NCBI GenBank assembly: GCA_015179125.1
Contig: WHVA01000093.1
Location: 213,158-277,157, forward strand
DNA: 64,000 nt
Reading direction: 5' to 3'
DNA from: Gautieria morchelliformis
Taxonomy: Eukaryota; Basidiomycota; Agaricomycetes; Gomphales; Gomphaceae
The translations under genes were made by a program, and so were the position numbers. Under the pieces are notes generated by a model. It made no database searches. It was not told where the DNA came from and was given only the letters and a program-made list of their open reading frames with translations. Below are positions 19,668 through 64,000 of the stretch, piece by piece; position 1 is the first letter of the stretch; the number at the start of each line of letters is the position of its first letter.

Positions 19668-19735
19668 CATAGTGTGTCCTCACACGTAGCATGTCCTCAC
19701 ATGTAGCATGTCCTCACACGTAGCATGTCCTTGTT
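19668..19735 (+). repeat. Minisatellite TAGCATGTCCTCACACG, small array
   Basis: About four units of a 17 bp repeat (variants with ACATG or ACACA). The same unit forms a larger array at 20297-20640. The bases between the arrays (19736-20296) are single-copy and include a TATATAAA at about 20047. Confidence 0.9.
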
Positions 19736-25113: not shown

Positions 25114-25497
25114 CACTAGGTGCAAGTCACTGTTTGTTTACCATAACCTATGTCAACAAATAGTGAAAAAAGAGGAAATCTTGTAATAATTTGAAACTAT
25201 GGCAAATGGTGAAGAATACTTTCTTTTTGTTTACAATTTAAAACATCAAGAAAATCTGAATAATGGCAAATAATAATTTCTTGCATCTTATGCAGTGAAA
25301 AGGATTTATTTTGTCACAATTTATTTCTTATAAATGTTCACCTGTGTTTATTCAGATTTTCTTGATGTTTTAAATTGTAAACAAAAAGAAAGTATTCTTC
25401 ACCATTTGCCATAGTTTCAAATTATTACAAGATTTCCTCTTTTTTCACTATTTGTTGCCATAGGTTATGATAAACAAACAGTGACTTGCACCTAGTG
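25114..25497. mobile_element. CACTA-type foldback MITE with 3 bp TSD
   Basis: A 384 bp element that is almost entirely a long inverted repeat: the left arm from CACTAGGTGCAAGTCACTG pairs with the right arm ending in its reverse complement. Arms are about 150 bp with a spacer of about 85 bp. The ends start CACTA and the 3 bp GAA is duplicated outside (25111-25113, 25498-25500). CACTA ends with a 2-3 bp TSD are diagnostic of the CACTA superfamily, to which Plavaka belongs. It has no coding capacity. Confidence 0.88.
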
Positions 25498-37545: not shown

Positions 37546-37550
37546 GGAAC

Positions 37551-38610
37551 ACACTTGAAGACTAGATAGACCTTGTGGTTGCCAGTCTGATGGTAAGCTG
37601 TACTAGGATATCAAGTGTCTCCAGAATGAAAGCCTATTAACGATCGGGCAGATGTACTCATGATCTGTTGCCTTACTCTCCATGCCCCACAATTAGCCAC
37701 CCTAAACCCCGTGATTGGTGTCTATTCGGACTATGAATACCTGCCGCCTCAACGCGTATTCTCCCCCATGCACGCTGGAGCGCTATCAGGTGAGGGACTC
37801 ATCTGAGCGCACAATAGCGATACAGATACTATATAAACAGAGGGGGTCACTGCAGTGACTCGGGGCACTTAATATAAGTATATCACGCACCAATTTTTCA
37901 TTGCCCAAGTTACTGATAATAAGTAACCGGGGAGCGGATTTTTGACACTTCCTCTCGATAAGCAGGGTACCGAAATCTAGTAGCTAAAATGTCTGCTTTC
38001 AGCATTTTAGAACGCTGATTTTCAGCTCTTAAGTTACTTATAAATGGTACTTTAGAACACAATAAAACATTGCTTTCTATTACTGAAAAGACACTTGGAA
38101 ATACATTGACTGAAAGCTGTTGTGAACAATGAAATAGACACAGTTACAAACCATGCATGCCGAGAAAAGACCAGAGCTGATGGACGGTTGTGACATGTGC
38201 GAGAGCGGAAGCAATGTATTAGGGTGTTTCATGCTTGTGTTTTCATGGCATTTTCAAGGCGTTTTTGGAAAAAGCGCCAGAAAAACGGGAATTGGAAAAG
38301 TGTGGCTGGTAGTAATGCACACCGTGCCGTACACCCACGGCTATATGGTGCCGTATTACGGCCACTGCACCCGTACCGTCAAGGGTCTGTGTGCTGTGCC
38401 GACGGTACGGTATACAGTACGGTTTGATGCCGTCCCCGACTCTCTCCCAGTAATACACGATTCACTGGGGCCGGTGCCGCACGGCACAAACCACCGCTGA
38501 CTTTCGGCCGTCAACGGTGGCAATTACCACTTCAAGCACTTGCGCCCACTCCCACCCACCCTCAATCTGCACCGCATGCTGTTGCGCGTTGTCACACAAC
38601 GCGTGGCACC
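37551..38610. other. No gene seen
   Basis: Spacer between LTR A and LTR B. A GTACGG/CCGTAC-rich stretch at about 38315-38490 is internally repetitive. The 115-codon frame there is not supported by any domain. Confidence 0.45.
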
Positions 38611-39885
38611 TGTCAAGATTGGTTTTCAGGCATTAATATCGTGTATTAGTGAACACAGCGAATGCCCGAATAACTTGTGCGAATAAGTATGCCGTTCGGC
38701 GAATAGGTGAACCAATGAATGTTCACAAGGTAAGAGGGTTTGCCTAAACGGGGCTCACCCTATCTACAGTCATAGCGAAATGGCCCGTGACTCTTGACGA
38801 TGTAACGTGCAAGGTCTCACGGAAGGGCTGTCTAAGTCTCGACAATCCCTTCGCTGGCGAAGGTGCTCCTTCGGAGCCCTTCGCCAACGGCACAGAAAAT
38901 GGTTCGAAGGCTAAGGTAACGAAGATGAAGTATGAGAACTCACCAGTGATGCCTAAGTCCTCTACTAGTTGAAGATGGAAATCTCCAAGAGAAGGCTTAA
39001 GACGATGACCACGGTGAGGTCAAAGCTGCACAAGATGAACGACGTATGATAATTGAACTGGGGAATATACATGCGAATGTAAACTACTTATATCGAATGC
39101 TTGTAAGGTATCAGCGAATAGGAAAGAGGCCATCACGAGTCAGGGTTGGATAGGGGTGCGCAGTCATGATACAACATAGATGAAATAAACATACAATAGA
39201 ACGTGAGAAGAGGGAGAACATGAAACGACGGAGAGTAAAGGTGGCGAAGGCACTTATGGACAAAACCATGTCTTGGGACCCGCATACATGCTACCCTGCA
39301 CGGACTCTTGGTCTACTGGGTTGATTCCGCACGACCTATGGAAGGGATGTCCTGCGAACATACTTTGACCATACGAACGCCCAATGGGGTTGGATTTAAG
39401 AAGACGATGGGGTTAATGATGAACCATCATGCCGGGTGAATGGTATCGATCATATTTGATGGTGTGCCTGCTGGTGAATGATGCGAGCAGCGAATAGCCG
39501 TTTGGTGAAATGCAAGGAAGGGCAAACAGAAGTGACATAGGGGAGGAGAGGTCGAGGTGGAGGGCGAAGCCGAGCGAACACTGAGGAGGAGTAGCGAAAG
39601 GGAAAATGGGGATACCAAGGTGCAGGAAATACACAGGTCATGACAACCCAACTATCAGAACACCATCGGAAGAGGGTCGAGCAGAGGAGGTGGTAGGCCC
39701 AGTGATGACTGCTGAGTCAGTCCCAAGACGTCGATCGTGCGTTTGACGGCGTGGCTATGGTAGTTGGCGCGAACAGCGAGAATTGGTTGCTGAACATGAC
39801 AATGGTGATCGGAACGAACATGAAGGTGGGGTGAGAAAATAGGAAAACTGAGCTTCTGAGTATGGGAAATAAACGTGTCGTGACA
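38611..39885 (-). mobile_element. LTR B (TGTCA family) with adjacent polypurine tract
   Basis: Begins TGTCAAGATTGG and ends GTCGTGACA on +. Directly outside its right end the minus strand reads CTAGGAGGGGGGTAC just before the LTR, which fits a polypurine tract, so LTR B would be the 3' LTR of an element read on the minus strand. Flanks GCACC (left) and GTACC (right) differ by one base. The internal part follows to 40864, where another LTR copy (C) begins. Confidence 0.8.
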
Positions 39886-40065
39886 GTACCCCCCTCCTAG
39901 CTTCGGAGTCCAACGACGTAGTGCTCTGGGATGGGGGATGAGTCTGAGGACGTAATAGTGCTCCCGATACGATATCTCGCCGCTTGGTCCGTGCATGGCT
40001 CAGCCCTGGGCTTTAAAAGGCGTTGCGACGTGAGGCGACGGGTTCATTTCACTATTCAATTCCTT

Positions 40066-40864
40066 ATGGCTCCTAACGAGTCCTCCTCTCTCTCTGTGCT
40101 CATCGAGCGAACGTGGGTCAAGCTGAAGGTTCGTCCTGACCTTCGGGGAGCCTTGCGCGAAGAAGTGGAGCAGTGGGCTGTCGAGGCTGAAGAGCTTCAG
40201 GTAGGAGAGCTCCCTCATCAAGGATTTTTGCTGACCACCCCATCACAGGCCGAGCTGCGTACCACATTGCGTGTTGAAGCGATCGCGGATCCCGACTTCG
40301 AACATCCGTTGGAAGTGGACGACCTGGTGAGGGAGGTGAAGGAAGCGAAAGAGTGGTTCAGGAGTGTGGGTTTCTTAGTTAGCCCAGAGTTCCTTGATGC
40401 CGGGATGAACACGGTGCCAGAACCGATAGCATCGCGAGGTCCGTCGAAGGAACCCGAGGTAGTGGGGGGTGCTACGAAGGAGCCCCGAGTTGAGGGGGAC
40501 AGTATGCGGGAGTCTGAAAGTATGTGACACTTGTTTATTTGCTGGCCTCCTGACTTGAAGTTCTCTCGAAGATCCCGCTCGCACAGCTGAGCCTATCGCT
40601 GGATCACCTGGACAATCGGCCACAGTCCAGCCCGTGCGCACGAAGCGGTGACCCATGTTCCTGTCGTCTGAAGACGAAGGCGAAAATACCCAGACACCGA
40701 AGAAGGCTCGGAAGGAACGCACTCGGAGTCCTTTGCCAGAGGTTGTCGCAGTCGAGCCGACTCCTGCCCACCGTTGCAAGGGTCGGGCGAATGCGCTGGT
40801 TACTGAATCGGACAAGGTTCCTCAATTGGTAGTGAAGCATGGTTACCCCGAGCATGCGTATTTG
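40066..40864 (+). pseudogene. Antisense ORF between LTR B and LTR C
   Basis: Starts with ATG 180 bases from the end of LTR B. It reads MAPNESSSLSVLIERTWVKL, an acidic helical region (LREEVEQWAVEAEELQVGEL), DDLVREVKEAKEWFRSVGF, and an acidic/Pro-rich part to 40527. A likely intron starts at GTATGT (about 40520), and after one in-frame TGA comes SSEDEGENTQTPKKARKER and a region with Cys/His (HRCKGRANAL, HGYPEHAYLCQ) cut off by LTR C. It is opposite in sense to the polypurine tract of LTR B. Placement, charge and the Cys/His end match the ORF at 7157-8559. Function unknown. Confidence 0.55.
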
Positions 40865-41416
40865 TGTCAAGATTGGATTATAGGCGTTAATATCGCATGT
40901 TAGTGGCGAATGCCCGAATAGCGTGTGCGATCTAGCGAATCGCCCAGCGAACAGTACCGAAGAGGTAAGGGTTAAGAAGTAAGAGGGTTACTTGAAAGGA
41001 ATTCGCCCTGATATACAGTCATAGCGAAATAGCCCATGGCACTTGACGATGTAACGTGCAAGGTGTCACGGAAAGGTTGTCTAAGTGGCAACAATCCTTT
41101 CGCCGGCGAAGGCACTCCTTCGGAGCCCTTCGCTGACAGCACAGAAAATAACTCGAAGGCTAAGGTAATGAAGATGAAGTATGAGAACTCACCAGTGATG
41201 CCTAAGTCCTTTGCTGGTCGAAGATAGAAATCTCCAAGAGGAGGCTCAAGACGATGATCACAGCGAGGTCAAGTTGGCACAAGATGGACGACATATGATA
41301 ATTGAACTGGAGAATATACATGTGAATGTAGACTACTTATACCGAATGCTCATACGGTGCTAGCGAAATAGGAAAGAGGCGGTCTGGAGTCAGGGTTGGA
41401 TAGGGGTGCATGGTCA
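40865..41416 (-). mobile_element. LTR C (TGTCA family), truncated by a copia element
   Basis: Begins TGTCAAGATTGG and follows the other family members (CGCTGACAGCACAGAAAAT, GATGAAGTATGAGAACTCAC) for 552 bp, then stops at GCATGGTCA where the copia LTR starts. The missing right half is not found on the far side of the copia element. Confidence 0.88.
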
Positions 41417-41914
41417 TGTGGAGGACAGGAATTATAGGCAGTAGGTATGGACTTGTTATTCAAAAGAGTAGACTAGAAATCAATTCACTCTCTCAGTGAA
41501 TTTAGTGGTCACTGTAAATATATTATACACTACCTAGAAATCAATTCACTACAGAGGATTTCTAGGTCAATAAATGTAAAGACTACTAGACTAATTTACT
41601 TGCCTCTCTCAGTGAATTTAGTGGTCACTGAGAGAGGGGGAAATGTGTTCCACTGCGCATGTACTACTACCCGGCCCTTTAGCGCCCAAGAGCTCGCGCG
41701 TCGAAGTCATTTCAGACTCCGCTGGGTGCAGCCGCTTGTGAAAGTAGGAATAACAAGATGAAATAGAGAGATAAGGAATGAGTGGAAAATTTCGAAAATA
41801 ACCAGAGAAATGGATGCATAATACAAGAACAATGTGAGAAGAAATTGGAAGGCCACACAACAAATTGGATATATTATGCTTGATTTTGGTGCAGGAGCAT
41901 AAATGCACCCAACA
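41417..41914 (-). mobile_element. 3' LTR of Ty1/copia element
   Basis: 498 bp, TGTTGGGTGC...CCACA on the minus strand. It is preceded (minus strand) by the polypurine tract AAGCTTGAGGGGGCG right after the RT stop codon. It is close in sequence to the 5' LTR at 46168-46666 and to the solo LTR at 52077-52574, more so to the latter. Confidence 0.93.
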
Positions 41915-41927
41915 CGCCCCCTCAAGC

Positions 41928-43691
41928 TTAATATATTCCAATTTGCTCGTTGAGAATCTTCACTCTAGGACTAGGAAGTCCTTTAGTGAGGATATCTGCC
42001 AACATTTGTTCGGTTGGCAAATAAACGAGCTTGGCTTGTTGATTTTTGATTATATCTCGAAGGAAATATAATCGGATGTCGAAATGCTTGGTTCTCGTGT
42101 GTTGTTGGGTGCCATACGTGATGGCAATGGCTGATTGATTGTCTGAATAAACTTGGATGGGTCTGTTCAGTGGTTGGAATATTTCAGAAATAAAATGGCG
42201 CATCCAAAGAGCCTCTTTGCCCGCATGGGTCAGGGCGACGAATTCGGCTTCAGTTGATGAGAGGGCTACTATCGACTGTTTCTGGCAACTCCATGAAACA
42301 GTGCCTCCATCAATCTGAAATAAGTATGCCGAATACGAACGCCTATGACTCTGTGAACCCCAATCCGCATCTGAATACCCCATCAAGCCGTCTCGATTTC
42401 TTCTAAGTGTGAGCTTGTAATGCTTCGTGCCTTTCAAATATTTGAAGACACGTTTGACTGCATTCCAATGTGTGCCACCTGGATTTTCGAGGAATTGCGA
42501 GAGTAATGACACCGCAAATGCAATGTCAGGTCGAGTGGCTACAGCCGCCCACATCAGTGATCCTATAGCTTGCCTGTATGGAAACTTCGACATGGCTTTC
42601 TTGCCTCTCTCTGTAGAAGGACATTGGTCTTTAGATAATTTTACGGCTGGATCAAGAGGCGTAGCATAAGTCTTTGCATCTTCGAGATTAAATTTTTTGA
42701 TGATCTTCTCGATGTATGCAGGTTGTGAAATTGCAATGGTCTTCTTCTGCCAGTCTCTTTCGATTTTAAGATTCAATAGCCAATGAATCTCGCCTAGATC
42801 TTTCATACTGAAGACCTGAGCAAGATCTCGTTTGACTTCGTCCAGGACTGACTGATTCTCAGCTGTGATGGTAAGGTCGTCCACAGCTGTTGCAATGATC
42901 ACATGCCCCTTTCCGCCACGTCTATAAAATACAGCCCCGTCTGTGGCTGACGTAGTGAATCCTAACTTGTGGAATTCACCACTTAGACGTTTGTACCATT
43001 CTCTTCCAGATTGCTTGAGGCCGTAGAGTGCTTTCTTCAAAAGTAGCACTTCGCCTTTGTCTCCTGACTCATATCCATACGGCTGCTTCATGTAAATAGG
43101 TTCGGGCAACGTAGCATTGAGGTATGCATAGTCCACGTCCATTTGATGGATAGGCCAGTCATTCCTAGCAGCAATGGCGCATATGATCCGTAGGGAGGAT
43201 AACCGAGCAACAGGTGAGTATGTCTCATCATAGTCGACTCCAAACTTCTGCGTGAAGCCTTGGGCGACCATTCTCGATTTAGGCATTATTGGTTTCCCTT
43301 CTGGATTACGCTTCCAAAGGTAGACCCATTTATTACCGACAATATTGGCTCCAGGAGGTGGTTTGGCTCGTTCCCACACTCCCTTGTCGATTAGGGCCTC
43401 ATACTCTTTGTCCATTGATTTCTTCCATATAGGATTATTCAGAGCTTCGTCTGCATTGCTAGGTTCAATTTGATTCAAATCCGGCGCCTTGTTATTGTTT
43501 TGACCGTCGGTTAGAAACGCACTGATGGCACACTCATAGCTACTGATGCCATCAATCTCGGAGGATAATTCTTGGTCGAATAAATCTTCTTTATGGTCCT
43601 CAACGTCCTCGTAAGCTAGCGTAGTCATATGTGCGCCAGCTTGTCTCTGGGTTTGAGATCTTGTTACGGGACCTGATGGGGCCGGCTGCAC
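41928..43691 (-). CDS. Ty1/copia reverse transcriptase-RNase H (587 codons, open)
   Basis: Uninterrupted reading frame for the C-terminal half of a copia polyprotein. It has KEYEALIDKGVWERAKPPPG, the NKWVYLWKRNPEG entry motif, FTQKFGVDYDETYSPVARLS, QMDVDYAYLNATLPEPIYM, the catalytic TAVDDLTI (in place of the usual YVDDL), FSMKDLGEIHWLLNLKIERD, and RNase H with GYSDADWGSQSHRRSYSAY, SSTEAEFVALTHAGKEALW, YSDNQSAIAI and HTRTKHFDIRLYFLRD. It is the best preserved mobile-element gene in the window. The upstream part of the same polyprotein is frameshifted, so the element is not intact as a whole. Confidence 0.93.
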   Translation of the reverse strand: MQPAPSGPVTRSQTQRQAGAHMTTLAYEDVEDHKEDLFDQELSSEIDGISSYECAISAFLTDGQNNNKAPDLNQIEPSNADEALNNPIWKKSMDKEYEALIDKGVWERAKPPPGANIVGNKWVYLWKRNPEGKPIMPKSRMVAQGFTQKFGVDYDETYSPVARLSSLRIICAIAARNDWPIHQMDVDYAYLNATLPEPIYMKQPYGYESGDKGEVLLLKKALYGLKQSGREWYKRLSGEFHKLGFTTSATDGAVFYRRGGKGHVIIATAVDDLTITAENQSVLDEVKRDLAQVFSMKDLGEIHWLLNLKIERDWQKKTIAISQPAYIEKIIKKFNLEDAKTYATPLDPAVKLSKDQCPSTERGKKAMSKFPYRQAIGSLMWAAVATRPDIAFAVSLLSQFLENPGGTHWNAVKRVFKYLKGTKHYKLTLRRNRDGLMGYSDADWGSQSHRRSYSAYLFQIDGGTVSWSCQKQSIVALSSTEAEFVALTHAGKEALWMRHFISEIFQPLNRPIQVYSDNQSAIAITYGTQQHTRTKHFDIRLYFLRDIIKNQQAKLVYLPTEQMLADILTKGLPSPRVKILNEQIGIY

Positions 43692-45208
43692 TTGTTGTTG
43701 ACGGATCCTTTCGCTTCTCCTTATCGGTTCAGCTTCTCTAGGTCTGTCATCAACTCCCTGAATAGGTTGCAGCTTTTAAGATATTCTTCCGGTGCACTTT
43801 CATCAATTTCTTCGATCTTTGCCTCTTCGCTGACTAAGCGACCGGGCACAGGCACTGATGCCGGAATGGCCTTCTTCTCTTCTCTAGACGTAGGTAGCTT
43901 GGATTCCTCAATAGAAATGATTGGGACCTTTCCCTTCTTCATCTCTGAATCAAACACAACGTTCCGCTCGACAGAAACTTTGTGCGAGTCAGGCCAATAA
44001 ATATAATGACCATGGCTCTGCGCAGAAATTCCTATCCACCGAGCTCTCTTGGCACGAGCTGCCAATTTATCTCCCTGAGTGATTTTAACATAAATTCAGT
44101 TCCCCACGCGTGAATGTCTTTGAGATTCGGTTTTCATGGTGAATCATCTCGTAGGGCGTTTTATCTGGTAGAGCTCTTGTATGCGTCCTGTTCCTAAGAT
44201 AATTGGCATGCTGTATCGCATAGCCCCATAATATCTTAGGAAGGCCTGATTCTAGCAGCATGGCACGAGTTCTCTCAGTGAGAGTTCGGTTCAGGCGTTC
44301 CGCAACACCATTGGACTCTGGTGTGTCGTGTACCGTCAACTGATGCTTCGTGCCTTGTTTGGCTAGATGCTGTTCGAATTCAGAGCTCAATACTCGCCCC
44401 CTCGATCAGAAACAAGTGCCTTGATGTGCACATTTCTCTGTCGAAGCATTAAAGCCTCGTAGAGCTTGTACTTTGAGAATGCTTCTGATTTGTTCGCCAT
44501 GAGATAGATCACCGATTCTCTTGAGTAATCATCGATAAAGGAGACATAATATGACTTCTTATCGATTGTGAGGTGCCTTGCAGGTCCCCAGACATCAGAA
44601 TAAATTCTGTCACCGAATTTTGATGTTCGGTCTCTGGGTTCTCGAGGAAGAGGTTTGCGCGCAATCTTGGCCTGAATACACGCATCACAACAATTCTATC
44701 GCCTGTGGAGCTCAGTTCAATGCCCAATATCATGCCATGATTTAATAGATGTTGTAGGGACTTCTGCGAGATATGCCCCATTTTTGATGAATTTCCATGG
44801 CAGATAAACACATATGGGCTTGAGCACTTGGTGACTGGAGGTCTAGTCGATATAAACCATTGACCTTCGGTGCTTGCATCAATACCTTTCCAGTAGCGTT
44901 AGATATTGTGCATTTCTGGCCACCGAGTCGAATGTCGTAGCCAGCATCATCGCACCGACCGATCGAGACGAGGGTAGCAGCAATTTTGGGGCATAATATG
45001 TATCTTGCAACGTGACTTCTACTGTTTTATCTCCAACTTTATTGGATAATACAGCAGTCCTGACCGAAGGCATCAAAAGTTCCTTTGTTGGCTGCTCGGA
45101 TAGTCCTCGGCTGTGAGAATTGACAGTAGTTCCTCAATAAATTTTTGTGAGGAGTCATATGCGATGTCGTTCCGGTGTCGAGTATAACTATAACTCCTGA
45201 GGATGTGC
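43692..45208 (-). pseudogene. Ty1/copia protease-integrase region, frameshifted
   Basis: Upstream continuation of the same polyprotein on the minus strand. The protease motif ILDTGTTSHMTPH lies at about 45145-45195. The integrase core includes YSDVWGPARHLTIDKKSYY, VSDRGGEY at about 44395 and ESNGVAERLNRTLTERTRAM at about 44290, supplying the D, D and E residues. A linker (ARWIGISAQSHGHYIYWPD) leads toward RT. At least three frame breaks were seen (near 45210, 44395-44385 where one base is missing after GGEY, and 44090), plus one just before the RT frame. Confidence 0.85.
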
Positions 45209-46162
45209 TCAAATTGAAATTAGAGCACTCGTCAAAATTGGTGAAGGCAAGATGGCCATCACCACTTTCCTCAGAAGAGGACTCTTCTTCGGCAACATTC
45301 GCTTTTGCTTTACCCTTCTTCTTCTTCTTGGTTTGGCTTTTTTCTTCTGACGTGGTCCTTGACCTTCTTTACCACCTCCTTTAGCCCAGCAATTTTCGAT
45401 GGAATGTCCAGGCTTTTTGCAGTTGGTGCATACATGCGCCTTCTGCCCCTTCTGGTCCTTTTTAATAGATGAACCAATAAACACCTGCTCTTCTTGCGGG
45501 AGTGTTTTCTTCCTGTCATACTGAGCCTTTAGTACCCTAATAATATTATCAGGGACCAATGGCATCCCGCATTCTTCAAGCGAAGTGGTAAGGGCATTCA
45601 TGACTGCCTCATAGGATGGTGGAAGTGACGCAAGGATGATGTCCATAAATTCTTCTTCGGAAACTCTGGCTCCCATCTCATTAAGACGAGCATATAGGTC
45701 TTGGGCCTTGTCCAAATGATCTCTCAAGTCTCCATCCTCAGGACATCTCATACTGCGGAGTTGTCTCTGCAGGCTGGTGAGGACCATCTTGGGCTTTTTG
45801 GTCATCTCATTGACCAGTGCATCCCAAGTCTCTTTTGCTGTCTTCTGCTTCTGTAGCATCAGGGCTAATGACTCTGACACTGAGACGATGATTTGGGTCT
45901 TGGCTTGTCCTTCTCTAGCAAGGTATCTCTCCAGCTTGTCCTCAGCCTTATCCATCTGAGTTTCCTCAGCTTCTGTGAGAATATGGCCTGGGGGCATAAC
46001 TGGAGGATCAGGAGGTCTAGTGACTCTCCCTTCTACATGCTTGAGTAGATTTTTGGACTCGAAATAGCTGATGAGAGTGGCTCGCCACAATGGCCAATTA
46101 CTTCCATCAGTAGCAAGCTTCTCAACACCCAATAGCTTCTCAGAAGTGTCTCCGGGGCCCAT
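45209..46162 (-). CDS. Ty1/copia Gag
   Basis: 317-codon frame starting MGPGDTSEKLLGVEKLATDG just inside the 5' LTR, with the copia opening L-x-x-D-x-S-N-W-P-x-W-R, a long helical UBN2-type domain (ERYLAREGQAKTQIIVSVSE, VSEEEFMDIILASLPPSYEA), and a CCHC zinc knuckle CTNCKKPGHSIENCWAKGG followed by a basic tail. The end of the frame after the knuckle is probably shifted relative to protease, so the last residues (SPLLRKVVMAILPS) are likely not original. Confidence 0.88.
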   Translation of the reverse strand: MGPGDTSEKLLGVEKLATDGSNWPLWRATLISYFESKNLLKHVEGRVTRPPDPPVMPPGHILTEAEETQMDKAEDKLERYLAREGQAKTQIIVSVSESLALMLQKQKTAKETWDALVNEMTKKPKMVLTSLQRQLRSMRCPEDGDLRDHLDKAQDLYARLNEMGARVSEEEFMDIILASLPPSYEAVMNALTTSLEECGMPLVPDNIIRVLKAQYDRKKTLPQEEQVFIGSSIKKDQKGQKAHVCTNCKKPGHSIENCWAKGGGKEGQGPRQKKKAKPRRRRRVKQKRMLPKKSPLLRKVVMAILPSPILTSALISI

Positions 46163-46167
46163 AACCC

Positions 46168-46666
46168 TGTTGAGGACAGGAATTATAGGCAGTAGGAATG
46201 GACTTCTTGCTCAAAAGAATAGACTAGAAATTAATTCACTCTCTCAGTGAATTTAGTTGTCACTATATAAATATATTATACACTACCTAGAAATTAATTC
46301 ACTACAGAGGATTTCTAGGTCAATAAATCGAAAGAATGCTAGACTAATTTACTTGCCTCTCTCAGTGAATTTAGTTGTCACTGAGAGAGGGGGAAATTGT
46401 TTCACTGCGCATGTACTACTATCCGGCCCTTTAGCGCCCAAGAGCTCGCGCGTCGAAGTCATTTCAGACTCCGCTGGGTGCAGCCGCTTGTGAAAGTAGG
46501 AATAACAAAATAAAATAGAGAGACAGGGAGTGAGTGGAAAATTTCGAAAATAACCAGAGAAATGGATGCATGATACAAGAACAACATGAGAAGAAATTGA
46601 GAAAGCACACAACAAATTGGATATATTATGCTTGATTTTGGTGCAGGAGCATCAATGCACCCAACA
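46168..46666 (-). mobile_element. 5' LTR of Ty1/copia element
   Basis: 499 bp, starts TGTTGGGTGCATTGATGCTC and ends TCCTCAACA on the minus strand; the gag ATG follows 6 bases later. The right flank (AGTTG) does not match the flank left of the 3' LTR (GGTCA), so no TSD is present. Confidence 0.93.
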
Positions 46667-47208
46667 AGTTGCACTCACATGTACAGCCAATGAAGCATTC
46701 CAGGGACCTAGGGTGGTGAACAGTGGGCCTCCTCCACCACCAGTTTTTTGTAAGGCAGGTGAATTGCATACCAGGTTTGCCACACAACTCCCTTTGAGGC
46801 CAGCGATACTACCAGTGACCACACCCCTCCCAGCTGCCTCTGGACCCGCTCCAATGGGTGTGGACACCGTGAAAAGGCGATCCCCACAGCCACTCACCTG
46901 TTGGTGTGGCAGGAAGGTCGGATGCTTCGCATGAGAATGTCCCCAGGCCTACAATGTCTGCTACAAGACAGCCAATGAGTGTGAGGAGCTACTGAAGCAC
47001 TGGATGGTTGCTGCAGACACGCGAGATGTCACCGAAGAAGAGGTCGAGAGGGATGTTGTGGAGGATTTTGCGTCATGCAGAGAGTGAGAGATGTGCCCTT
47101 GCTGCCCCTGTCCAATCGCTTTGCTGCCCTGTCAATAGCCCCAGATACTGAAGGTACTATTCACATGTTTGAAACTGGGTTGTATGCAGCAGGCGATAAG
47201 GATGCATC
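46667..47208 (+). pseudogene. Unidentified coding remnant
   Basis: Shows protein-like text in shifting frames: PRVVNSGPPPPPVFCKAGEL, then CWCGRKVGCFA*ECPQAYNV, ECEELLKHWMVAADTRDVTE and RDVPLLPLSNRFAALSIAPD. The C-x-C...C-P spacing recalls a zinc-binding module, but no family can be named. It ends at LTR D, which inserted into it (TSD GCATC). Confidence 0.4.
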
Positions 47209-48424
47209 TGTCAAGATTGGTTTTTAGGCGTTAATATCGTGTATTAGTGAACACAGCGAATGCCCGAATAACTTGTGCGAATAAGTATGCCGTTCGGCGA
47301 ATAGGTGAACCAATAAATGTTCACAAGATAAGAGGGTTGCCCGAACGGAGCTCGCCCTATCTACAGTCGTAGCGAAATAGCCCATGGCACTTGACAATGT
47401 AACGTGCAAGGTGTCACGGAAGGGCGACAATCCCTTTGCCGGCGAAGGTGCTCCTTCGGAGCCCTTCGCCGACAGCACAGAAAATAGTTCGAAGGCTAAG
47501 GTAACGAAGATGAAGTATGAGAACTCACCAGTGGTGCCTAAGTCCTCTTCTGGTTGAAGATAGAAATCTCCAGGAGAAGGCTCAAGAGGATGATCACAGC
47601 GAGGTTGGGTTTGCACAAGATGGACGACGTATGATAATTGAACTAAGGAATATACATGCGAATGTAAACTACTTATATCGAATGCTCGTAAGGTATCAGC
47701 GAATAGGAAAGAGGCCGTCATGAGTCAGGGTTGGATAGGGGTGCGCAGCCATGATACAGCATAGATGAAATAAACATACAATAGAGTGAAGGAGGAGTGC
47801 GAACATGAAATGATGGAGAGTAAAGGTGGCGAAGGCACTTATGTACGAAACCATGTCTTGGGACCTACATACATGCTACCCTGCACGGACTCTTCATCTA
47901 CTGGGTTGATCCCACACGACCTACGGAAGGGGCGTCCCGCGAAAACATTCTGGCCATATGAACACCCAAAGGGGTTGGATCGAGAAGCTGATGGGAGTAG
48001 TGACGAACCATCCTACCGGGGAGGGGGCGTTGATCGTGTTTCGATGGCGTGCCTGTTGGCGAATGATGCGAGCAGCAAATAGTTGTTCAGTGAAATGTGA
48101 GGAAGGGTGAATGGAGATGGCATGGGGGAGGAGTGGTGAAAGGGGAAATGGGGATAACAAGGTGCAGGAAATACACAAGTCATGACAATCTGATCATAGG
48201 AACACCATCGAAAGAGGGTTGAGCAGAGGAGGTGATAGGCCCAGTGATGACTACCAAGTCAGTCCAAAGACGTCGATCATGCTTTGACGGCGTGGCTATG
48301 GTGAATGGTGTGAACAGCGAAGATCGGTTGCTGAAACGGCAAGGGTGATCAGAGCGAACACGGAGGTGGAGTGGGGAATGAGAGAACAGAGCATCTGAGT
48401 AGGGGAAATAAATGCGTCATGACA
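47209..48424 (-). mobile_element. Solo LTR D (TGTCA family), with TSD
   Basis: 1216 bp, begins TGTCAAGATTGG and ends GCGTCATGACA on +, with the 5 bp duplication GCATC at 47204-47208 and 48425-48429. No internal region. Confidence 0.93.
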
Positions 48425-48581
48425 GCATCAACCAATGACATTCTAAAAGGTCCTTCCCCACAATTGACGCATTGGGAGGGAGCCCTCCAAAGCACTTTGT
48501 GGTTGCAACTGTTCTCTCTCCAAATTTGCCGAGCCTCAGGGTGGAGATCTGGATGACAGACACAGCTGAGGTCAAAGAAGC

Positions 48582-48965
48582 TTATAAGGGCAACCTAGGC
48601 AGACACTCTACACTCAAGTGGTGAACTGGTGAAGGGGGATCCAAAGTAAGATAAACATAGACATACCTGGCGAAGGGGGATCCAAAGAGAAAACTCTAAA
48701 GAACTCCTTCACCAGCTAGCTACGACTATAAGCTGTGGGAATGCTAGCCTGATCACTGAATGCCTGAGTTACATAAGTGATCGCACTGGCGATAACAGGA
48801 ACAAGGACAGGACAGATAAGAAAGGAATGATATTGGAGATGGCTGGGACAGGGAGGGAATGACTGGAACACAAGGCAGAAGGATGCCAAAGGCTGGGAGA
48901 GTCTTGGAGGCCTTGATCTCACATCACACTGGGGTGCACACAGTGCGATGATGGTTCCCCTGAAA
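48582..48965 (-). mobile_element. LTR F3, 3' LTR of gypsy copy v
   Basis: On the minus strand it starts TTTCAGGGGAACC directly after the pol stop in a purine-rich AGAGGGGGAGTGA tract and ends GGTTGCCCTTATA. The ends correspond to TGTCAGGG...CCCTTACA of LTRs F1 and F2 with one-base changes. It shares their internal duplication of a GGGGGATCCAAAG-type motif. Diverged and old. Confidence 0.7.
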
Positions 48966-50504
48966 TCACTCCCCCTCTAGAATGCAGTGATCTGACGCAT
49001 GAAGGCCTACTGGTGGAACAGGGGTGTGATTCTGAAAGGTGACAGCCTCCAAGGTGTGAATGCAACAAGGGGCACCCAGATGTGAGCGGTAGAAGTCAGC
49101 GATGAGGTCAGGAGCTTGGACATCACCCTCATTCTCCCATGAATTCTCTTCGTAGCTGTATCCCTTCCACTTGATGAGGAACTGCAAGTGATTAGCTTGC
49201 ATGCGACTGTCCAACACCTGTTCAACTTCAAAGTGCTCATCGCCCTCCCTAAGAACCAGGGGGGCGGGGTGGGGCAGGTCACTGACCCAGGATTGGATAG
49301 CAGGGAGCAGGAGTCAGCTTGATGACAGGGAAAATGGGGTGGAGGTGATTCAGAGACTTAGGGAGGCGGAGACAATATGCGTGCGACCCAACTTGGCATT
49401 CAACAACATAGGGCCCAAGTCACCGATGAGCCAGCTTCTTTGATGGATGGGTGGTGCATATATCACTTGCATTGAGGTACACCTTGTCACCCAGTGCGAA
49501 TGTAGGTGCAGGCTCAGGTCGGTGATTATAGTATGTTGCCATGTCCTCCTTCAACTTTGTCAGTGCTGACTTTTTTTCTGACAGTGACTCCTCCATGTGC
49601 TCCTTGAATTCATTGACAGATTCGAGATGTGATGGAGGTTGATGTGGTTTGAAGCCCATTTGTGGGTGCTGCCTGGTGTCCAGCATGAAGGGTGACTGAC
49701 CAGTTGAATCATGAACGTGGTTGTTATACTGCAACTTGGCCATGGGCAAAATAACAAAGAGGCGAAAGTACTGCTCCAGCTCTTGATCGCTTTCTAATTG
49801 ACTAATTAATATTTCAAAAAATTAATTTTTTTTTTTTTTTCAAATAAAAATAAAAGCGAAAAAATTAATTTTTATTTGTAGTTGAGTCACTCCATCTGTC
49901 CATCAGTCTGCAGGTGGTATGCTGTGGAGGCTGTGATGTGGATGCCCAGGAGGCAATAAAGTTCTTGATTGAATTCGCGCACAAACTGGATTCCATGATC
50001 TGACACAACTGTTTGTGGCAGCCCATGCAGCTTCCAGACATTGTGTAGAAAAAGTCATGCTGCCCCAGCTGCAGTGATTGTGGTGTTGGTGGGGATGAAG
50101 TGGGCCCACTTTGAGACTGAATCCGCCATATTCATCACAGCGTCATACCCATGTGGGTCAGGCAGTTCCACAATGAAGTTCACACTGATTGTGTCCCAGC
50201 AAGCAGGGACAGGGGCTGTCTTCGTGCCTTGTTCTGCAGCCACAAATCGAATGTCTTGGAGTACTCGCCAATGTACCATGACATGTGAGGCCACCAGTAA
50301 TTCTGCGAGACGATCTCAAGGGTCTTCCATCGCCCAGGATGACCAGCAACTAGTGAATTGTGGTGCTGGGCAACAATTCATCACCTGAGGTCCTGGACAT
50401 CTGGAACATACACTTTGCCTCAGAATGTGAGCAACCCATCCATCTCAGCCCGCTCTGCAGACACAAGCAATTTCCCACCCGACTCTTGCAGCTTCCTGAC
50501 TGCC
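48966..50504 (-). pseudogene. Ty3/gypsy pol 3' fragment (integrase + chromodomain), copy v
   Basis: Minus-strand integrase region of a second gypsy lineage. It begins with the linker ESGGKLLVSAERAEMDGLL (about 50490-50430), then VSKWAHFIPTNTTITAAGAA, KLQYNNHVHDSTGQSPFML, FALGDKVYLNASDICTTHPS and a chromodomain (LQFLIKWKGYSYEENSWENE, about 49190-49130). It has many frameshifts and stops. About 95 bp of AT-rich sequence (49795-49890) is inserted between DGQ(M)E and the ELEQYFRLFV motif. It is cut on its 5' side by the LTR at 50505. Confidence 0.85.
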
Positions 50505-51161
50505 TGTTATGTATTGCGATTTCTGGAAGTTGGGACTAGAAAGGACAGCAACTTCAACTTATGTGTTGTGCCCCTGATGAGCTATCATCCTAAGTTTTTT
50601 GGATCAGAAGTTGGAAGTCAGAAAGTAAGTATCAAAACAAGTAAAGGTTGGAGTCTAGGTCGAAAGGTGGAATATGGAGAGACAGAAGTTCGGCAATACT
50701 CACTGTGCTAAGAACAGGAGATAGAGTGAAGGGAATCACATATCGAAGGCAATTATCTGATTGCAGAATAATGAGCATACATGAGGGGGTTTTATACAAA
50801 GAGCTGAAGCAACAAGTAATGGGGTAGTACTAAGCATATTCTGATGCCGGTGGAAGTTGGGTAAGACATATGGGGTAAGTAACCAATCTAGAACAAGAAC
50901 TACAAAGGGGGTGCAGGGTAGTGTAAAGAACAAGGGGCAAAAGAACAAGGGGAATAGGAAGGATTATTGATAACAGAACAGCGGGACTCCTAATGGTTCG
51001 GGCCTAGTGTTTTGCTGTATTGCGAGGCAGGTCTGAAGGGTCCGAATAATAGAGTCAAATGGGGAACGAATATGACAAGGGGCTGGAGCATTGGAGGTAT
51101 CAGGATGTCGGAAAGGAAGTGGAACTGAATACTGGAAGGTGGGATTGACATGATCGTAACA
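50505..51161 (-). mobile_element. LTR of TGTTA...TAACA family, 3' LTR of gypsy copy iii
   Basis: 657 bp, same family as the solo LTR at 5630-6301 (shared ATTATCTGATTGCAGAATAA and TTTTATACAAAGAGCTGA). On the minus strand TTAAAGGGGAGATAC lies immediately before TGTTACGATC, a good polypurine tract, and TATAAAAC occurs inside. It should thus be the 3' LTR of the minus-strand element whose antisense ORF begins at 51282 and whose pol ends at 54233. It abuts the 5' end of gypsy copy v. Confidence 0.82.
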
Positions 51162-52076
51162 GTATCTCCCCTTTAAGGTTGAGCCCAGCGAGACCACAAG
51201 GTAGATCACATGTCTTGTGAACAAACACGGTGGAGTTTGAAAGATAGGCGGGAGAGATAACGTGTCTTGTCCTCAACCGCCATGGACAATGAAATCGACT
51301 TCTTGAAGATGAGCAGTGCTCAGCTGGAAAAGCACTTTGCAGACATTGTTGCAAAGAAGAAGCAGGACAAGGAGTGTGAGAAACGTGAGGCTGAGGAACA
51401 TGAACGCAAAGGCAAGGAGAAAGAGAGCAAGGAACGACTTGTGCAAGAAGAGCGAGACTGTGAGAAGGAGCAAAAACATAAGGCAGTGGAACAGAAAGCT
51501 GCTGTGGAAAAGGCAGTGTCAAGATTGGTTTTTAGGCGTTAATATCGTGTATTAGTGAACACAGCAAATGCCCGAATAACTTGTGTGAATAAGTATGCCG
51601 TTCGGCGAATAGGTGAACCAATGAATGTTCACAAGGTAAGAGGGTTGCCCGAACGGGGCTCGCACTATCTACAGTCGTAGCAAAATCGCTCGTGGCACTT
51701 GACGATGTAACGTGCAAGGTGTCACGGAAGGGCTGTCTAAGTATCGACAATCCCTTCACCAGCGAAGGTGCTCCTTTGGAGCACTTCGCCGACAGCACAG
51801 AAAATAGTTCGAAGGCTAAGGTAACAAAGATGAAGTATGAGAACTCACCAGTGATGCCTAAGTCCTCTTCTGGTTGAAGATGGAATCTCCAAGAGAAGGC
51901 TCAAGATGATGATCACAGCGAGGTCAAGTTTGCACAAGATGGATGACATATGATAATTTAACTGGGGAATATACATGCGAATGTAAACTATTTATATCGA
52001 ATGCTCGTGAGGTATCAGCGAATAGGAAAGAGGCCGTCACGGGTCAGGGTTGGATAGGGGTGCGCAGTCATGATAC

Positions 52077-52574
52077 TGTTGGGTGCATTTATGCTCCTGC
52101 ACCAAAATCAAGCATAATATATCCAATTTGTTGTGTGGCCTTCCAATTTCTTCTCACATTGTTCTTGTATTATGCATCCATTTCTCTGGTTATTTTCGAA
52201 ATTTTCCACTCATTCTTTATTTTTCTATTTCATCTTGTTATTCCTACTTTCACAAGCGGCTGCACCCAGCGGAGTCTGAAATGACTTCGACGCGCGAGCT
52301 CTTGGGCGCTAAAGGGCCGGGTAGTAGTACATGCGCAGTGGAACACATTTCCCCCTCTCTCAGTGACCACTAAATTCACTGAGAGAGGCAAGTAAATTAG
52401 TCTAGTAGTCTTTGCATTTATTGACCTAGAAATCCTCTGTAGTGAATTGATTTCTAGGTAGTGTATAATATATTTACAGTGACCACTAAATTCACTGAGA
52501 GAGTGAATTGATTTCTAGTCTATTCTTTTGAATAACAAGTCCATACCTACTGCCTATAATTCCTGTCCTCTACA
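52077..52574 (+). mobile_element. Solo LTR of the copia family nested in LTR E
   Basis: TGTTGGGTGC...CCTCTACA, 498 bp, with the 5 bp duplication GATAC at 52072-52076 and 52575-52579. Nearly identical to the 3' LTR at 41417-41914 read in the opposite direction. Confidence 0.94.
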
Positions 52575-53238
52575 GATACAACATAGATGAAATAAACATA
52601 CAATAGAGTGAGAGAAGGGGAGAACATGAAACGATGGAGAGTGAAGGTGGCGAAGGCACCTATGCAAGAAATCATGTCTTGGAACCCGCATATACACTGC
52701 CCTGCATGGGTTCTTCACCTACTGGGTTGATCCCACACGACCTATGGGTAGGATGTCCCGCGAACGCACCCTGCTCATATGAACACCAAAAGGGGGTTGG
52801 ATCGAGAAGCTGATGGAATTACTGACGAGCCATCATGCCGGGTAGGGATGTCGATCGTGATTTTATGGTGTGCCTGCTGGCGAATGATGCGAGTAGCGAA
52901 TGGCTGTTCAGCAAAATGCGAGGGAGGGTGAACGGAGATGACATAGGGGAGGAGTGGTCGAGGTGGATGGCGAAGCCGAGCGAACACGGGGGAGGAGTGG
53001 CGAAAGGGGAAATGGGGATAACTAGGTGCAGGAAATACACAAGTCATGACAATCCGATTATCAGAACACCATCGGAAGAAGGTTGAGCTGAGGAGGTGAT
53101 AGGCCCGGTGATGACTGCCAAGTCGGTACCAAGATGTCAATCATGTGTTGACGGCGTGGCTATGGTAAATGGCGCGAACAGCGAGAATCGGTTGTCGAAC
53201 ACGGAGGGGGAGTGAAAAATGGGAGAACAGAGCATCTG

Positions 53239-57869: not shown

Positions 57870-58085
57870 TGTAAATAACCTGTGTATCTACATGTACATT
57901 AGTTATTACATAATCCCAGTGGGCCCCTTAGGGACCCACTGTATAGTTCATGCGTGGGAACCGGCCAGCGGTTCCCATCGCATCTTACTCTTACCTGTCA
58001 CTACGTAGCATTCAGAATACCACTCATTGGTCAAGTTCTGTTGTGCCCTTGTGATACAAGGTCTTAAGATCAACACCCTTTACAC
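57870..58085 (+). mobile_element. Putative 5' LTR of the last gypsy element
   Basis: Bounded by TGTAAATAACC and CCTTTACA, with the perfect terminal inverted hexamer TGTAAA/TTTACA, 216 bp. It interrupts integrase of copy iv and is followed by a 135 bp leader and then gag. The second LTR lies outside the window, so the call rests on ends, position and following gag. Confidence 0.65.
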
Positions 58086-58222
58086 CTTTTTGAACTATCC
58101 TGCGGTTGATTGCCACGCGACCAACCGATAGTGGATTCGAAGCAATCTTGAAAAAGATCGCTGCGTCGACGACTAAACATCGTTGAGACCCTCCAGTAGA
58201 CCCTCTACTGTCAGCTGTGAGC

Positions 58223-60780
58223 ATGATGATTCCACGCAGTCGAAGACGGACACGAGCGACGAGCTTGAGGTCCACACCCCAGGCGCAGCCCAGTGACACG
58301 ACAGCTGACGCTACCCTGGACCAAGAGACCAGGACGATAGAAGACGGAGAGATCGTAGATCTCACCGCCCTCGTCCCCTCAGCAGAGGACGAGGAAAATC
58401 CCGACCACGTCTCGTTGAGCGTGGCCGAAGAAGAGACGACGCCGGGCAACGAGTCGGCGCCGCCCCCCCATCTCTCTTTGCCCAAAGACAAAGGAAAGGG
58501 CAGACAAGTCTCGCCGTCATCAGACGGTACAGCAACAATGTCGAGGCGGGAACAAAGCCACGACTCAAACCGACGCTCACGAAGTAGAGCGACGACGATC
58601 GTCCCTGAAGGAGGACGACGGCAAAAGAGATGAGCCCCAGACGATGGTCAGGACTCGGAGTACTCGAGCTCTAGTCGCAAGGGCTCGAGAGCTCACGCCA
58701 TCGACCACGAGACGGCAGAGGCCCCCAACAAACAGGTGCAGGCTGCGCTGCACCGAAGTACGCTGACATGCCTCAAGCACGATCAGCTGGCCTCGCAGCT
58801 TGACAACGCCGCCGCCGCCCTAATGGCAATCGGCAAGGAACTCCACCAGGCGGAGGAGGTAAGGCTGCAAGACGCAGCCACGCTGGAGGACGTCCAGAAA
58901 GCACTCCGCCCACGCGGGGAACGTGATGCAACTCGTCCGAGCTCGCGACAGTCCGCAGCTAACAAACGCAGTCGCAATGTGCACCGAAATGAGCGAGACA
59001 AACAGCAAATGCCGCCGCCAGCCGTCCCGGTCGAACAGGACGTAAGGTTCAGAAATGAACCTCAGGAGCAACCAGCTGCCCCGACGGACAGCCGTAAAAT
59101 GATCCAACAGATCGTTAGGGATCAGGTCGCCTCAGAGCTTGACTCTGAAATGACGACCGAGAGCCTAGAGCTCGAAGTCGCACACTGGCAGCGTAAATAA
59201 GCCACAGCCGCGCGCCGCCACACACGGGCACTCGAGCTACTAGCAAAGAACGCTGAAGAAACGGTGGGCCACAGCCACACCGCTCAGCTACCCGACGAAC
59301 AGCTCACGCAAGCCGTACAAGACGCACGGCAAGCGCGCGCAGCCTACAACAGCAGGCTACGGATCCGCAATGCGGGACTGACCGGGGAGACCAGGCACAA
59401 AACACCCCCGGAACCGAGAGCACAAAATGCTCCCGATCCCGAGCCTGACCCGGGCCCGGGGCCCGTCAGGGCATATAACAGCCTGCCCCGCGCGGCATCA
59501 CAACCGCGCGAGAGATCGGTGGCACCAACGGAAGGCCAGGGAATCCCTGACCAGGCCGACGTCGTACCAATGGAGCTGTACGACGGGATCACATGGATGA
59601 TCCACGTGGCGTTGGCAGACGCCGCGGACACAGACCCGGAGAAGTCTGTGCTAGTGAAGGCCGGCGTAAAATTGGCCCACCCCGAACCATATGCAGGGGG
59701 ATCGGACCTCGAAGAGTTTGAAATCTTCGTGGCAGCCATCCTACGATGGCTAAAAATGAACTGCCTCTAGGGCCAACCAGCATTGACACGCAGGTCAGCT
59801 ATGTGGGCACTCGCCTCACCGGCGAAGCCCAGGAGTGGTTCTTTCGAAACGTTGAACGTTCGATCGCCAGGTCCGCAGCTGGACGCTGGAGTCAGTGATG
59901 CAAGGCCTCCAAAAGAGGTTCCTGCACACACTGACATACCATCACGCATCGAATAAATTTGACGCGGTTATGCAAGGCATGAAAACCGTTCAGGAGATGC
60001 TGAACGAGCTCACGAAATACGCGGCAGTATGATACAGCCGCCAGACGAGTATACGTTCCGGAGACGGTTGTATCGGTGCTACGCGAAACGCTGCGCAATG
60101 AAGTCCTCAAAAAGGGCTATAATGCTGAGAGCAGCTCAATAGAGCAACTCTTCGAGACGGCCCGAATGATCGAGGAGGCATCCCGATACAACATGGGGAT
60201 GCGCCGCGCAGAAAGCGCGGCAGCAACGGCAAGTGCCGCCCGGCTCACAGGGAGCAAGCCGTTGACACAAACGGGCCTGACCAGACCCGCCTGTTCACAA
60301 GAAGCGGAACAGGACAGCAGCTACCCCCTCACGCCCAGCACAACTGGACGCCCGCCTGAAGCTAAACAGCCTCAAGCGTCAGGATCGTCCCCGGACCTGC
60401 CCCACCAACGAAAACGTCGGGCCGGCCGGGCAGCCAAAGCAACACCACATGCTTGAATGGGCCAACTGGCCACAAGAAGGCAGAGGGCCCCCGGCTTAGG
60501 TCCGGTATGAGGACAGCAGCCGTGAGGCACGACGGTGAAGCCGAGGATCCGGACAGATCCCGATCAAAACTCTCTCAACAAATGATGAAGAGGGGGAGGG
60601 TGATCCCCAACCCAACGACACTCCGGATAACGGAGACACGCCCGCGGAAGAGTGGGACCCGAGCCGTCCCAATACTATGAATGGGACGAAGAGGTGGAGG
60701 AACCACCTACAGGTCCAGCGCGATCAGATTCGCGTGGAAGAGAAACCGCCACGAAAGTCAGGCGGCCGCACATCGGTCAC
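58223..60780 (+). pseudogene. Ty3/gypsy gag with many single-base losses
   Basis: Gag polyprotein of a common Agaricomycete gypsy lineage. An acidic N-terminus (TIEDGEIVDLTALVPSAEDE) is followed by a long coiled coil (58.7-59.4 kb), then the capsid: AHPEPYAGGSDLEEFEIFVA, RWLKMNCL and TGEAQEWFFRNVE, FLHTLTYHHASNKFDAV, LRETLRNEVLKKGYNAESSS and MIEEASRYNMGMRR. A CCHC knuckle (about 60446-60490) and EWDEEVEEP..YRSSAIRF follow. The frame breaks at about 59768, 59858, 60030 and 60068 are each one base; all but that near 60030 are clearly explained by one missing T. The knuckle also needs several Ts to read C-x2-C-x4-H-x4-C. T content falls steadily along the gene. Confidence 0.82.
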
Positions 60781-60812
60781 GCCAGACAAGGCGGCCGAGC
60801 CGGGGTATCACC

Positions 60813-63800
60813 ACCGAAGCAAACACAGACGCGGCCAACGGCCGCGCAGGGAGAACCGACCCGAGCGGGGACGGGGAAAAAACGGCGAAAAGCCCACGGC
60901 CGGCGAGAGAGCGGCAGCGAAGGGGACGGCGGCCCCCGAAGGCACGCGAGCGACAGGGATGAAGACAGGCGCCCGGGAGCAACCAAGCGCGCGGCAGCGA
61001 GCCGGCAGAGGCAGCCGGCCACGAGCAACGAGGAACGAACACGACCAGCAAGGGGGGCGGGGACAGACGACGAAGAGGCGACGGAGCAAACGGCGAAGAG
61101 GACGACGCGAGCGGAGGGACACCGGCCGAAGGAGAGGCGGCAGAACCCGGGACGGCGCGAGCCCAGGGACGAGCCGCAAGGGAAACGAAGGGAGCCCCAC
61201 GGGCAAGGGCGCAGGCGACGAGACGAAGCGAAGAACGAGGACAAAGGGCCACGGGGGAGCAGGAGCACCCAGCGCCGAAGCCGAACCGGGCGCAGGGAAG
61301 CCAGGAGGACGAGGCGCGGACGACGCGGCCGCGAACGCACCCGACAGCCGGAGGGAGAGACGCGCGCACCGAACGGGGAAAGCGAGGGGAAAGAGGAAAG
61401 CGGGCCCGGCGCCGCGGGACCGAAGAGACGCCAACAGCGCCGAAGGGCGGCGAAGCCAACCACACCAGCAGCCGCACGGAGGAGGACCGGCCGCGCCGCC
61501 GCGAGGAAGGGAGGGAAGAAGCACGGACCGAGGCAGGGGAAGGCCAGGAGAACGCCCGCCACGCGGGAGAGCAACCAGGAGAGCAACCGCAGCGAGCCCA
61601 ACAAGCACAGGCGGGAGCGACGACCGAAAGGCCCCGAACACGGCCGAGAGGAACGGGCGGCAAGAGAGAACGAGACACCACGGCAAAGGGGGGAGGCCGG
61701 CAGGGCGCAGCAGGCAGGGCCCAGGCGGGGGGGGCCGAAGAAGAACGGGACGGGAGAACCGGCGGCGAGCGGCGCCAGCAGAACGAGAACACGGGGAAGG
61801 ACGGCACGCCCGGCCCGGAGCAGGAGAGCAGCGCAGCGACAGGGCGCGCGGCCGAGAGCGAACAAAACGCGAGAGGGCAGAAGCAGACGAGCAGAGCCGG
61901 AGCCAGCCGGAGCACGGAGCAAAGACAGCCGGGGCCACGAGCCGGGGCACCGGCAGGAGCCAGGGGAGACAGAGGGGGACGGGAACGCCCCAGCAACAGG
62001 CCAACGGCGGAGGACAGCCAGGGGCCGCGACGGCAGAGGGCGCGGCGGCCAGGGAGACAGGGACGACAGCGGCAGAGGCGCGCGCGCAAGACAAGAGCAG
62101 GAAGAGCACCGCGACAGCGGCGGGGACAGACGGAGGAAGAACCACCGCGGGCGGAGCAAGAAAAAGGGGGACCGCGAGCCAGCCGAAGGGAGGGCGCGGC
62201 CAGAGAGCGAGGGCCGAGGGGGACAGGCCGACGAGGAAAGAGGCAACGCAGCCGCGAGGGGCGCAGGCCACGGACGGGCAACGACGGCCAGCGGGGCCGC
62301 GGGCGGGACAGGAGCGGGCACACGACAGGCCAGAGGGGAGCGCAGAGACCACCCCCGAGCGGGCGGGGCGCGGAAGAACCGGCCAGGCGAAGGGACCCAC
62401 GCGGACAAAGGCGGGCAAAGCAGGAAGGCGGGGGCCGGGAAGGCCCCGAGCCGGCGGCCAGGAGACGCAAGGGGCCCAGAGCCGAGCGGGGGGAGCACCG
62501 ACGGAGCAAAAGCCGGCGGCGGGGCGGGCGACGGCCAAGGGCCGGACGGGAAAACGGGGCGACCAGCCGGCGGCGGGGCAAAGAAGGGCAGCGGGGCGCA
62601 GCAACACGACCGGACGCACGAGCACGAGACGAGCGCGGGGCGCGAGGCGCGCAGGAAAGGGGAGGACAAACGGCGGGGGCGAAGGGGCACCCGCGGCACA
62701 GACCACAAGGGCGCGAGGACGGCGAGACCCAGAAGAGCCGAGCGGACCGACAGGGCAGAGGGGGGGAGGGGCGCGCCCGGGGCAAGGGCAACACCGGGCA
62801 GGGGACGGGGGAGAGAACAAGGGAGCGGACGGCCGGGCGCGCGACGACGAGAGCGACACGAGGGAGGACAAGCACCCGGACCACGGCGGCGGGAACGCGG
62901 AGGCGCGGGGAGACCCGGACGGGGAGGGAGGGCCCACCGACCGGGAGGGCGAGCGGCGAACAGCGGCGACAAGACGCGCGAAACGCCGCGCGGAGAAGAC
63001 AGAGGCGAGAGGAACGGAAGCCGCCGCAGGAAACGAGGGCGCACCAGAGCCCGCGAACGGCGCCGCGGCAGCGACGACGACGAGGACGGCAGAGCCAGCG
63101 CCGCAGGAAAGGACGGCGCACCCCGGCGCCGGAGCGGCGAGCAAGGCGGAGACCGGGCGAAGGGCCGACGAGACGCGGACCACAGGGACACCAGGGGCAC
63201 AAAGAGCAGGGCGCACCCGGACGCGCACCCGAGAGGCGGGAGCCGGGACGGGCGGAGCGGGACGAAGAAGCAGCGCAAAGAGACGGCAGGGCCGGCCCCC
63301 GCGCGGGGCGGCAAGGGGGAAGGAAGCGGAGCGAAAGGAGCAGCGAGCGGGCACAGCAGAGAGGCGGCCACGACGGCCAGCGGAAGACGGCGAACGACGG
63401 GCGAAGAGCAGAGGGGGGCCGGGCAGGAGCCCAGACAGAGAAGCGGGCGGCACAGCGGGCGCGAGGGGCAGAGGACGAAAACCGGGCCACAACGGCCCAA
63501 AGGCCGACGACACAGCCGACCCAGGCCGAGAGGCCGGGGCAGGCGAGGGGCAGCGACGGCAGGGGGCCCCGGCCCAAAGCCAACGACGGGGACGACCGGA
63601 GGGGAGGCAGCGACCGACGAACGGCGCGCGGACACCGCGGACCAACCACGACGAGCGGGGCAGCCAAGGGAGGAGCCGGGCGGGGGCGGAAGGAGGGCAG
63701 CGACGCACGGAGGGCCCGACGCCAGCGGCGCGGACAGAGACGCAAGGGCACGGCGAGCGGCGGGCGGGAACGACAGCGACGCAGGGGGACGAAGCGCCGC

Positions 63801-64000
63801 AGGGCAACGGCCGGCCAGCCCCAAACGGAGGGAGCACCGAGCGGGCAAACCGCGCGAGCGGCCAGAGAGGGCGCGCGGGCGGCAGAGACGAGCAGAAGGA
63901 GGGGGCAGGGAAAGGCCCAAGGGGGGAGGGCGCCCGCAACAGCAACGGCAGCGCGACCACAGGGGGCGCACCGGGCGAGCGGAACCACGGCGAGAGGCCG
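60813..64000. other. T-free tract, probably pol of the same element with all Ts missing
   Basis: After the last T at about 60812 the + strand holds a single T (60960) in 3188 bases, while A, C and G continue in a non-repetitive order (about 23% A, 42% G, 35% C in a sampled line). Because every stop codon and every ATG contains T, and the reverse complement of every stop contains T, both strands are open in all frames. Near 60905-61050 the remaining bases line up with a gypsy protease region if Ts are assumed lost: SGSEGD, then RATGMKT, LEQP and, at about 61010, GSR. No gene is annotated here. Most likely a base-calling or assembly artefact. Confidence 0.85.

Follow-up and report, generated by a model that had tools for sequence, protein, structure and literature searches.

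A T-free tract at a contig end in Gautieria morchelliformis reads as a Ty3/gypsy-like copy with T written as G, very probably through a read-level artefact

The DNA that we analysed, a stretch of 64,000 nucleotides from Gautieria morchelliformis hereafter called the window, forms the right end of contig C1037 in a genome of 122 Mb in 1113 contigs. Its terminal part consists of a copy of a high-copy retrotransposon that carries a long tract without T (Table 1), and the contig stops at 277157, the last base of the window, within this element, while other copies of the element extend beyond the point where the contig stops. A domain scan of one aligned copy (L010) detected zf-CCHC, RT_RNaseH and Integrase_H2C2 above cut-offs in three ORFs. 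Since L010 thus combines a Gag zinc knuckle, an RNase H and an integrase zinc-binding domain, the element carrying the tract can be classed, from its predicted domains, as Ty3/gypsy-like. It shares these domains and its many copies with fungal Ty3/gypsy LTR retrotransposons, but such elements do not account for the missing T, which is present at normal levels in the copies that we compared.

The part of the element that leads up to the tract and across its edge (58001-60900) has at least 46 other matches in the genome, at least 34 of which cover all 2900 bases with 91-94% identity (40 of 2365 candidates scored). The tract has at least 40 other matches, those scored showing 78-81% identity and none being near 100% (40 of 1230 candidates scored). 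It aligns over its full length with intact Ty3/gypsy-like copies of its own genome. One of the copies, L015, lacks about 775 nt of the tract near window positions 61800-62600, an internal deletion in this one copy.

Table 1. Position of the retrotransposon copy, the T-free tract and its onset in the window
Feature	Position	Strand	Observation
High-copy Ty3/gypsy-like retrotransposon copy carrying the tract (class from predicted domains)	57870-64000	+	Alignment to L010 from 57870 to 64000
Onset, first part	60401-60808	+	45 T columns: 39 kept, 3 G, 3 deleted (two bins summed)
Onset, last part	60809-60960	+	21 T columns: 14 G, 6 deleted, 1 kept (T at 60960)
Fully converted tract, each T of the copies written G	60961-64000	+	0 T in 3040 nt; 502/502 all-T columns G; reaches contig end

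Base counts of the + strand gave 0 T for the 3040 nt of 60961-64000 and 0 T for the 151 nt of 60809-60959, the T at 60960 being the only one in 60809-64000, and the second-longest T-free run in the window measures 61 nt. Under a model of independent bases, a T-free 3040-mer has a chance of about 1e-387 if T is as frequent as in positions 1-60800 (25.4%), and of about 1e-179 if it is as frequent as in positions 58201-60800 (12.7%); given the base frequencies of the window, a T-free tract by chance is excluded. The composition of the tract (A 0.260, C 0.290, G 0.449) parallels that of the intact copy L018 (A 0.261, C 0.289, G+T 0.450) when G and T are pooled in the latter, the G content of the tract (44.9%) equalling the G+T content of the copy (45.0%). 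Upstream of the tract, positions 58201-59700 are also poor in T on the + strand, with 7-18 T per 100 bases. This segment is the gag-side of the element, and because four compared copies carry about the same number of T here, most of which the window retains, its low T content is natural. Across 60758-64000, six of six reading frames on both strands are open (1012-1154 codons), because no stop codon is possible without T on the + strand and without A on the - strand, and these open frames would mislead gene finders.

To follow each letter through the alignment, we counted columns in ten copies (L010, L013, L016 and L018-L024), leaving aside L012 (partial alignment), L014 (whose contig ends before the tract does) and L015 (for its missing segment). 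The tract has G in 502/502 of the columns in which all ten copies have T, and it retains A in 739/741 all-A columns, C in 761/762 all-C columns and G in 700/701 all-G columns, or 2200/2204 for the unanimous A, C and G columns together. A second count, with L010 as the reference and restricted to columns covered by at least three further copies that all agree (six bins from 60961), yielded 531 T columns, in which the tract has G 518 times, A once, a deletion 12 times and never T, along with 2245 A/C/G columns, 2231 of which were retained (5 substitutions and 9 deletions). Most differences between the tract and the intact copies in the alignment are T-to-G changes, and the tract is a full-length element copy in which T has been replaced by G, not removed. 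The mean divergence of the tract is 1.07%, compared to 1.22% from copy to copy and 0.81-2.14% for single copies, values that bear on whether reads of several copies were mixed and that are not decisive.

The upstream border of the tract is graded when viewed in the same columns. Between 57901 and 60400, T was kept in 308/311 T columns and replaced by C in the other 3 (four bins summed), and in 60401-60600 private deletions of other letters are clustered (14/158 A/C/G columns). In 60809-60960 the changes are T-specific, with 20/21 T columns lost or changed versus 1/119 A/C/G columns. Deletions of T relative to L010 then amount to 10/175 sites in 61001-62000, 2/202 in 62001-63000 and 2/176 in 63001-64000, a fading in line with a conflict between normal and converted reads close to the edge. 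A MAFFT alignment, which past 62000 was for the most part devoid of usable unanimous columns and in which the placing of gaps at the edge is doubtful, served only for the upstream part and for viewing the edge. The sequence-only reading had described a + strand made of A, C and G alone from about 60813 except for a T at 60960, and the base counts agree with that description. The abruptness that it saw holds for the base counts, which change sharply, but not for the errors, as private deletions and losses of T accumulate from about 60401; its premise that one base had been removed is false, the T sites being occupied by G in every unanimous column of a sequence of full length.

The tract differs from L018 by 35 deleted and 5 inserted places, and we related the deleted bases to runs of letters. 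When runs are defined on the converted letters, those of at least five hold more than their share of deleted bases (6/124 versus 29/2946, p 0.002; p 0.08 with the cut at runs of at least four), a result to be taken as support and not as proof, the cut having been picked after the table was seen. Runs of at least three defined on the original letters show no excess of deletions (5/375 versus 30/2695, p 0.61), and a test on mixed T/G runs was weaker (13/634 versus 6/748, p 0.06). As the deletions track runs of the converted and not of the original letters, they suggest that G had probably taken the place of T before run lengths were called, and so tell against a change made to the text at a later stage.

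The tract has normal counterparts in the same genome from which it differs by a one-letter rule, and it lies where the consensus is expected to be weak, at a contig end and in a high-copy repeat. It is very probably a base-calling or assembly artefact at the contig tip, the real DNA being an ordinary copy of the high-copy Ty3/gypsy-like element. We hold with equally high confidence that T was miscalled as G at the level of reads, whatever the reason for the miscall, and the cause of the tract is almost surely technical, with no biological feature behind it. The assembly resolved copies of the stretch with less than 1-3% divergence at non-T sites, so the reads used would have been long, and since the conversion affects one strand, without A-to-C changes, the reads behind the tip would have been of one orientation. 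The accuracy at A/C/G sites, where 2245 columns hold 5 substitutions and 9 deletions, is above that expected of one raw single-molecule read; several faulty reads, a pre-corrected read or a consensus must therefore be assumed.

According to the mechanism that we propose, two dyes sharing an excitation or detection channel would no longer have been distinguished, and a few long reads of one strand would have had T called as G. Such faulty reads would agree better with one another than with normal reads and would not be outvoted, and where the normal anchored reads run out in the repeat, the faulty ones alone would fix the consensus. Polishing reads are often not placed at high-copy repeats, and here they could not have been placed to mend the tip. 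At the onset, T-to-G reads would take over from normal ones in the pile-up, and a gap would be called wherever the two kinds disagree. A dye-channel step is the source of the miscall that we favour, albeit with moderate confidence. Four-colour Illumina sequencing uses one laser for G and T, and in single-molecule fluorescence sequencing the T and G dyes are probably neighbours. The tract is akin to dye cross-talk or channel miscalls in fluorescence sequencing in that one base is called as a fixed other one, on one strand and with the rest right, but it differs from them in being complete over 3 kb and in having been carried into a finished contig. To our knowledge, a complete one-letter miscall over 3 kb in a finished contig has not been described. 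The titles and abstract beginnings returned by a literature search contained no account of such a complete miscall and did not confirm that T and G share a channel or are neighbours in colour-based long-read sequencing, and the passages of PMC3623877 that we consulted hold no base-to-dye table for a sequencer.

Deletion of T instead of its replacement, for example by dropout of a channel without a call, was the initial hypothesis, as it would also leave a tract without T, and in a first-scoring alignment a T-stripped L010 (3155) indeed scores much like the full L010 (3173). However, the T-stripped copy needs 565 gaps and the full one 62, the T positions of the copies hold G throughout the unanimous columns, and deletion explains only 12/531 T columns; we rejected this hypothesis, the least probable of those considered and to our mind practically negligible, since the full-length copies can be aligned with few gaps and G stands at their T sites. 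A two-bit code that lost one bit would have changed C as well, and this possibility was ruled out by reasoning. A T-to-G replacement made afterwards in the text of the assembly file, be it by a script, through a corrupted file or as a planted test, would agree with a conversion that is complete from 60961 (0 T in 531 columns) and that leaves the other letters untouched beyond the few substitutions and deletions counted above. Nevertheless, such a replacement makes neither a graded onset with T-specific deletions nor deletions that track runs of the converted letters, and the tract stops exactly at the contig end in a repeat, where a weak consensus is expected, so that we regard a change of the text as improbable.

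Hypermutation in vivo or a modified base, a strand-specific process by which more than 3 kb of one copy would have exchanged each T for G (each A for C on the opposite strand), would have in its favour that a letter-specific change struck a repeated mobile element, the type of target of repeat-directed mutation. Against it stand a transversion that is 100% complete and spares no site (502/502), the restriction of the tract to a contig end and the 40 other copies among the matches listed at 78-81%, the identity that unconverted copies show, and it leaves the deletions of T at the edge unexplained. A real strand-specific process, or a modified genomic T that is taken for G in copying or reading, acting along more than 3 kb of a single copy, thus appears highly improbable, far more so than a change of the text. 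Known mutators obey other rules: RIP as well as APOBEC- and ADAR-type editing make transitions, RIP changing C to T (G to A) in repeats and APOBEC/ADAR-type deamination turning C into T or A into G on one strand, and diversity-generating retroelements change template A sites to various letters. RIP in fungi is alike in being a repeat-linked, letter-specific change in mobile elements, but it turns C into T, whereas the tract has T-to-G changes and kept 761/762 all-C and 700/701 all-G columns. Deamination of the APOBEC/ADAR type does not fit a transversion that kept 739/741 all-A and 761/762 all-C columns, nor does mutagenesis by diversity-generating retroelements fit a single fixed outcome (T-to-G, or A-to-C on the other strand, 502/502). 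The sequence-only reading had likewise judged that RIP, deamination and similar processes fail to explain the tract, and we concur, the change being a T-to-G transversion with C kept. It had left a choice between an artefact and something genuinely new, of which the former is supported by the alignment to intact copies, while the evidence goes against a new process.

We also searched for further instances of the change. Among 40 scored candidates there was no second T-to-G copy of the stretch, and 40 sampled contig ends out of 2226, a weak test, held no letter-depleted stretch, defined as a 200-nt span, moved in steps of 20, in which some letter occurs fewer than 10 times; the sample took 3000 bases from each left end of C1-C20, and 500 bases from each of 19 right ends and from the left end of C1037. 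Searches by exact words, also a weak test, found 0 and 0 matches for 16S rRNA words changed T-to-G and A-to-C in a collection of genome contigs, and 0 matches for a changed 18S word in the fungus's own genome. The tract indicates that a contig tip can hold a complete one-letter miscall and yet look like complex sequence, and a simple filter for stretches of some hundred bases without one letter would catch such miscalls. As biology the tract is most likely without importance, and its use lies in the caution that it teaches.

The remainder of the window holds further genes and repeats. On the - strand, 10352-13120 encodes an NPHP3_N/NACHT-type protein followed by a run of repeats with a spacing of 126/129 nt, which we take to be WD40-like; within it, 10428-10727 and 10812-11111 are identical across 300 nt, a sign of recent repeat expansion. 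A GMC oxidoreductase is also encoded in the window according to the domain scan; together with the NPHP3_N/NACHT-type protein and an RVT_2 reverse transcriptase, it suggests fungal DNA, probably that of a basidiomycete. Two minisatellite arrays (19625-19769 and 20265-20511) share a 17-nt period and lie about 0.6 kb apart, and 25114-25497 is a near-perfect inverted repeat with 150-nt arms that are 99% complementary and separated by a spacer of 84 nt. Finally, dispersed direct and inverted repeats are dense in 36658-53149 (families D3-D9, D12 and D13; pairs I1-I3, I5, I6, I8, I9 and others), and a Copia-type RVT_2 reverse transcriptase is located inside this cluster at 41931-43775.
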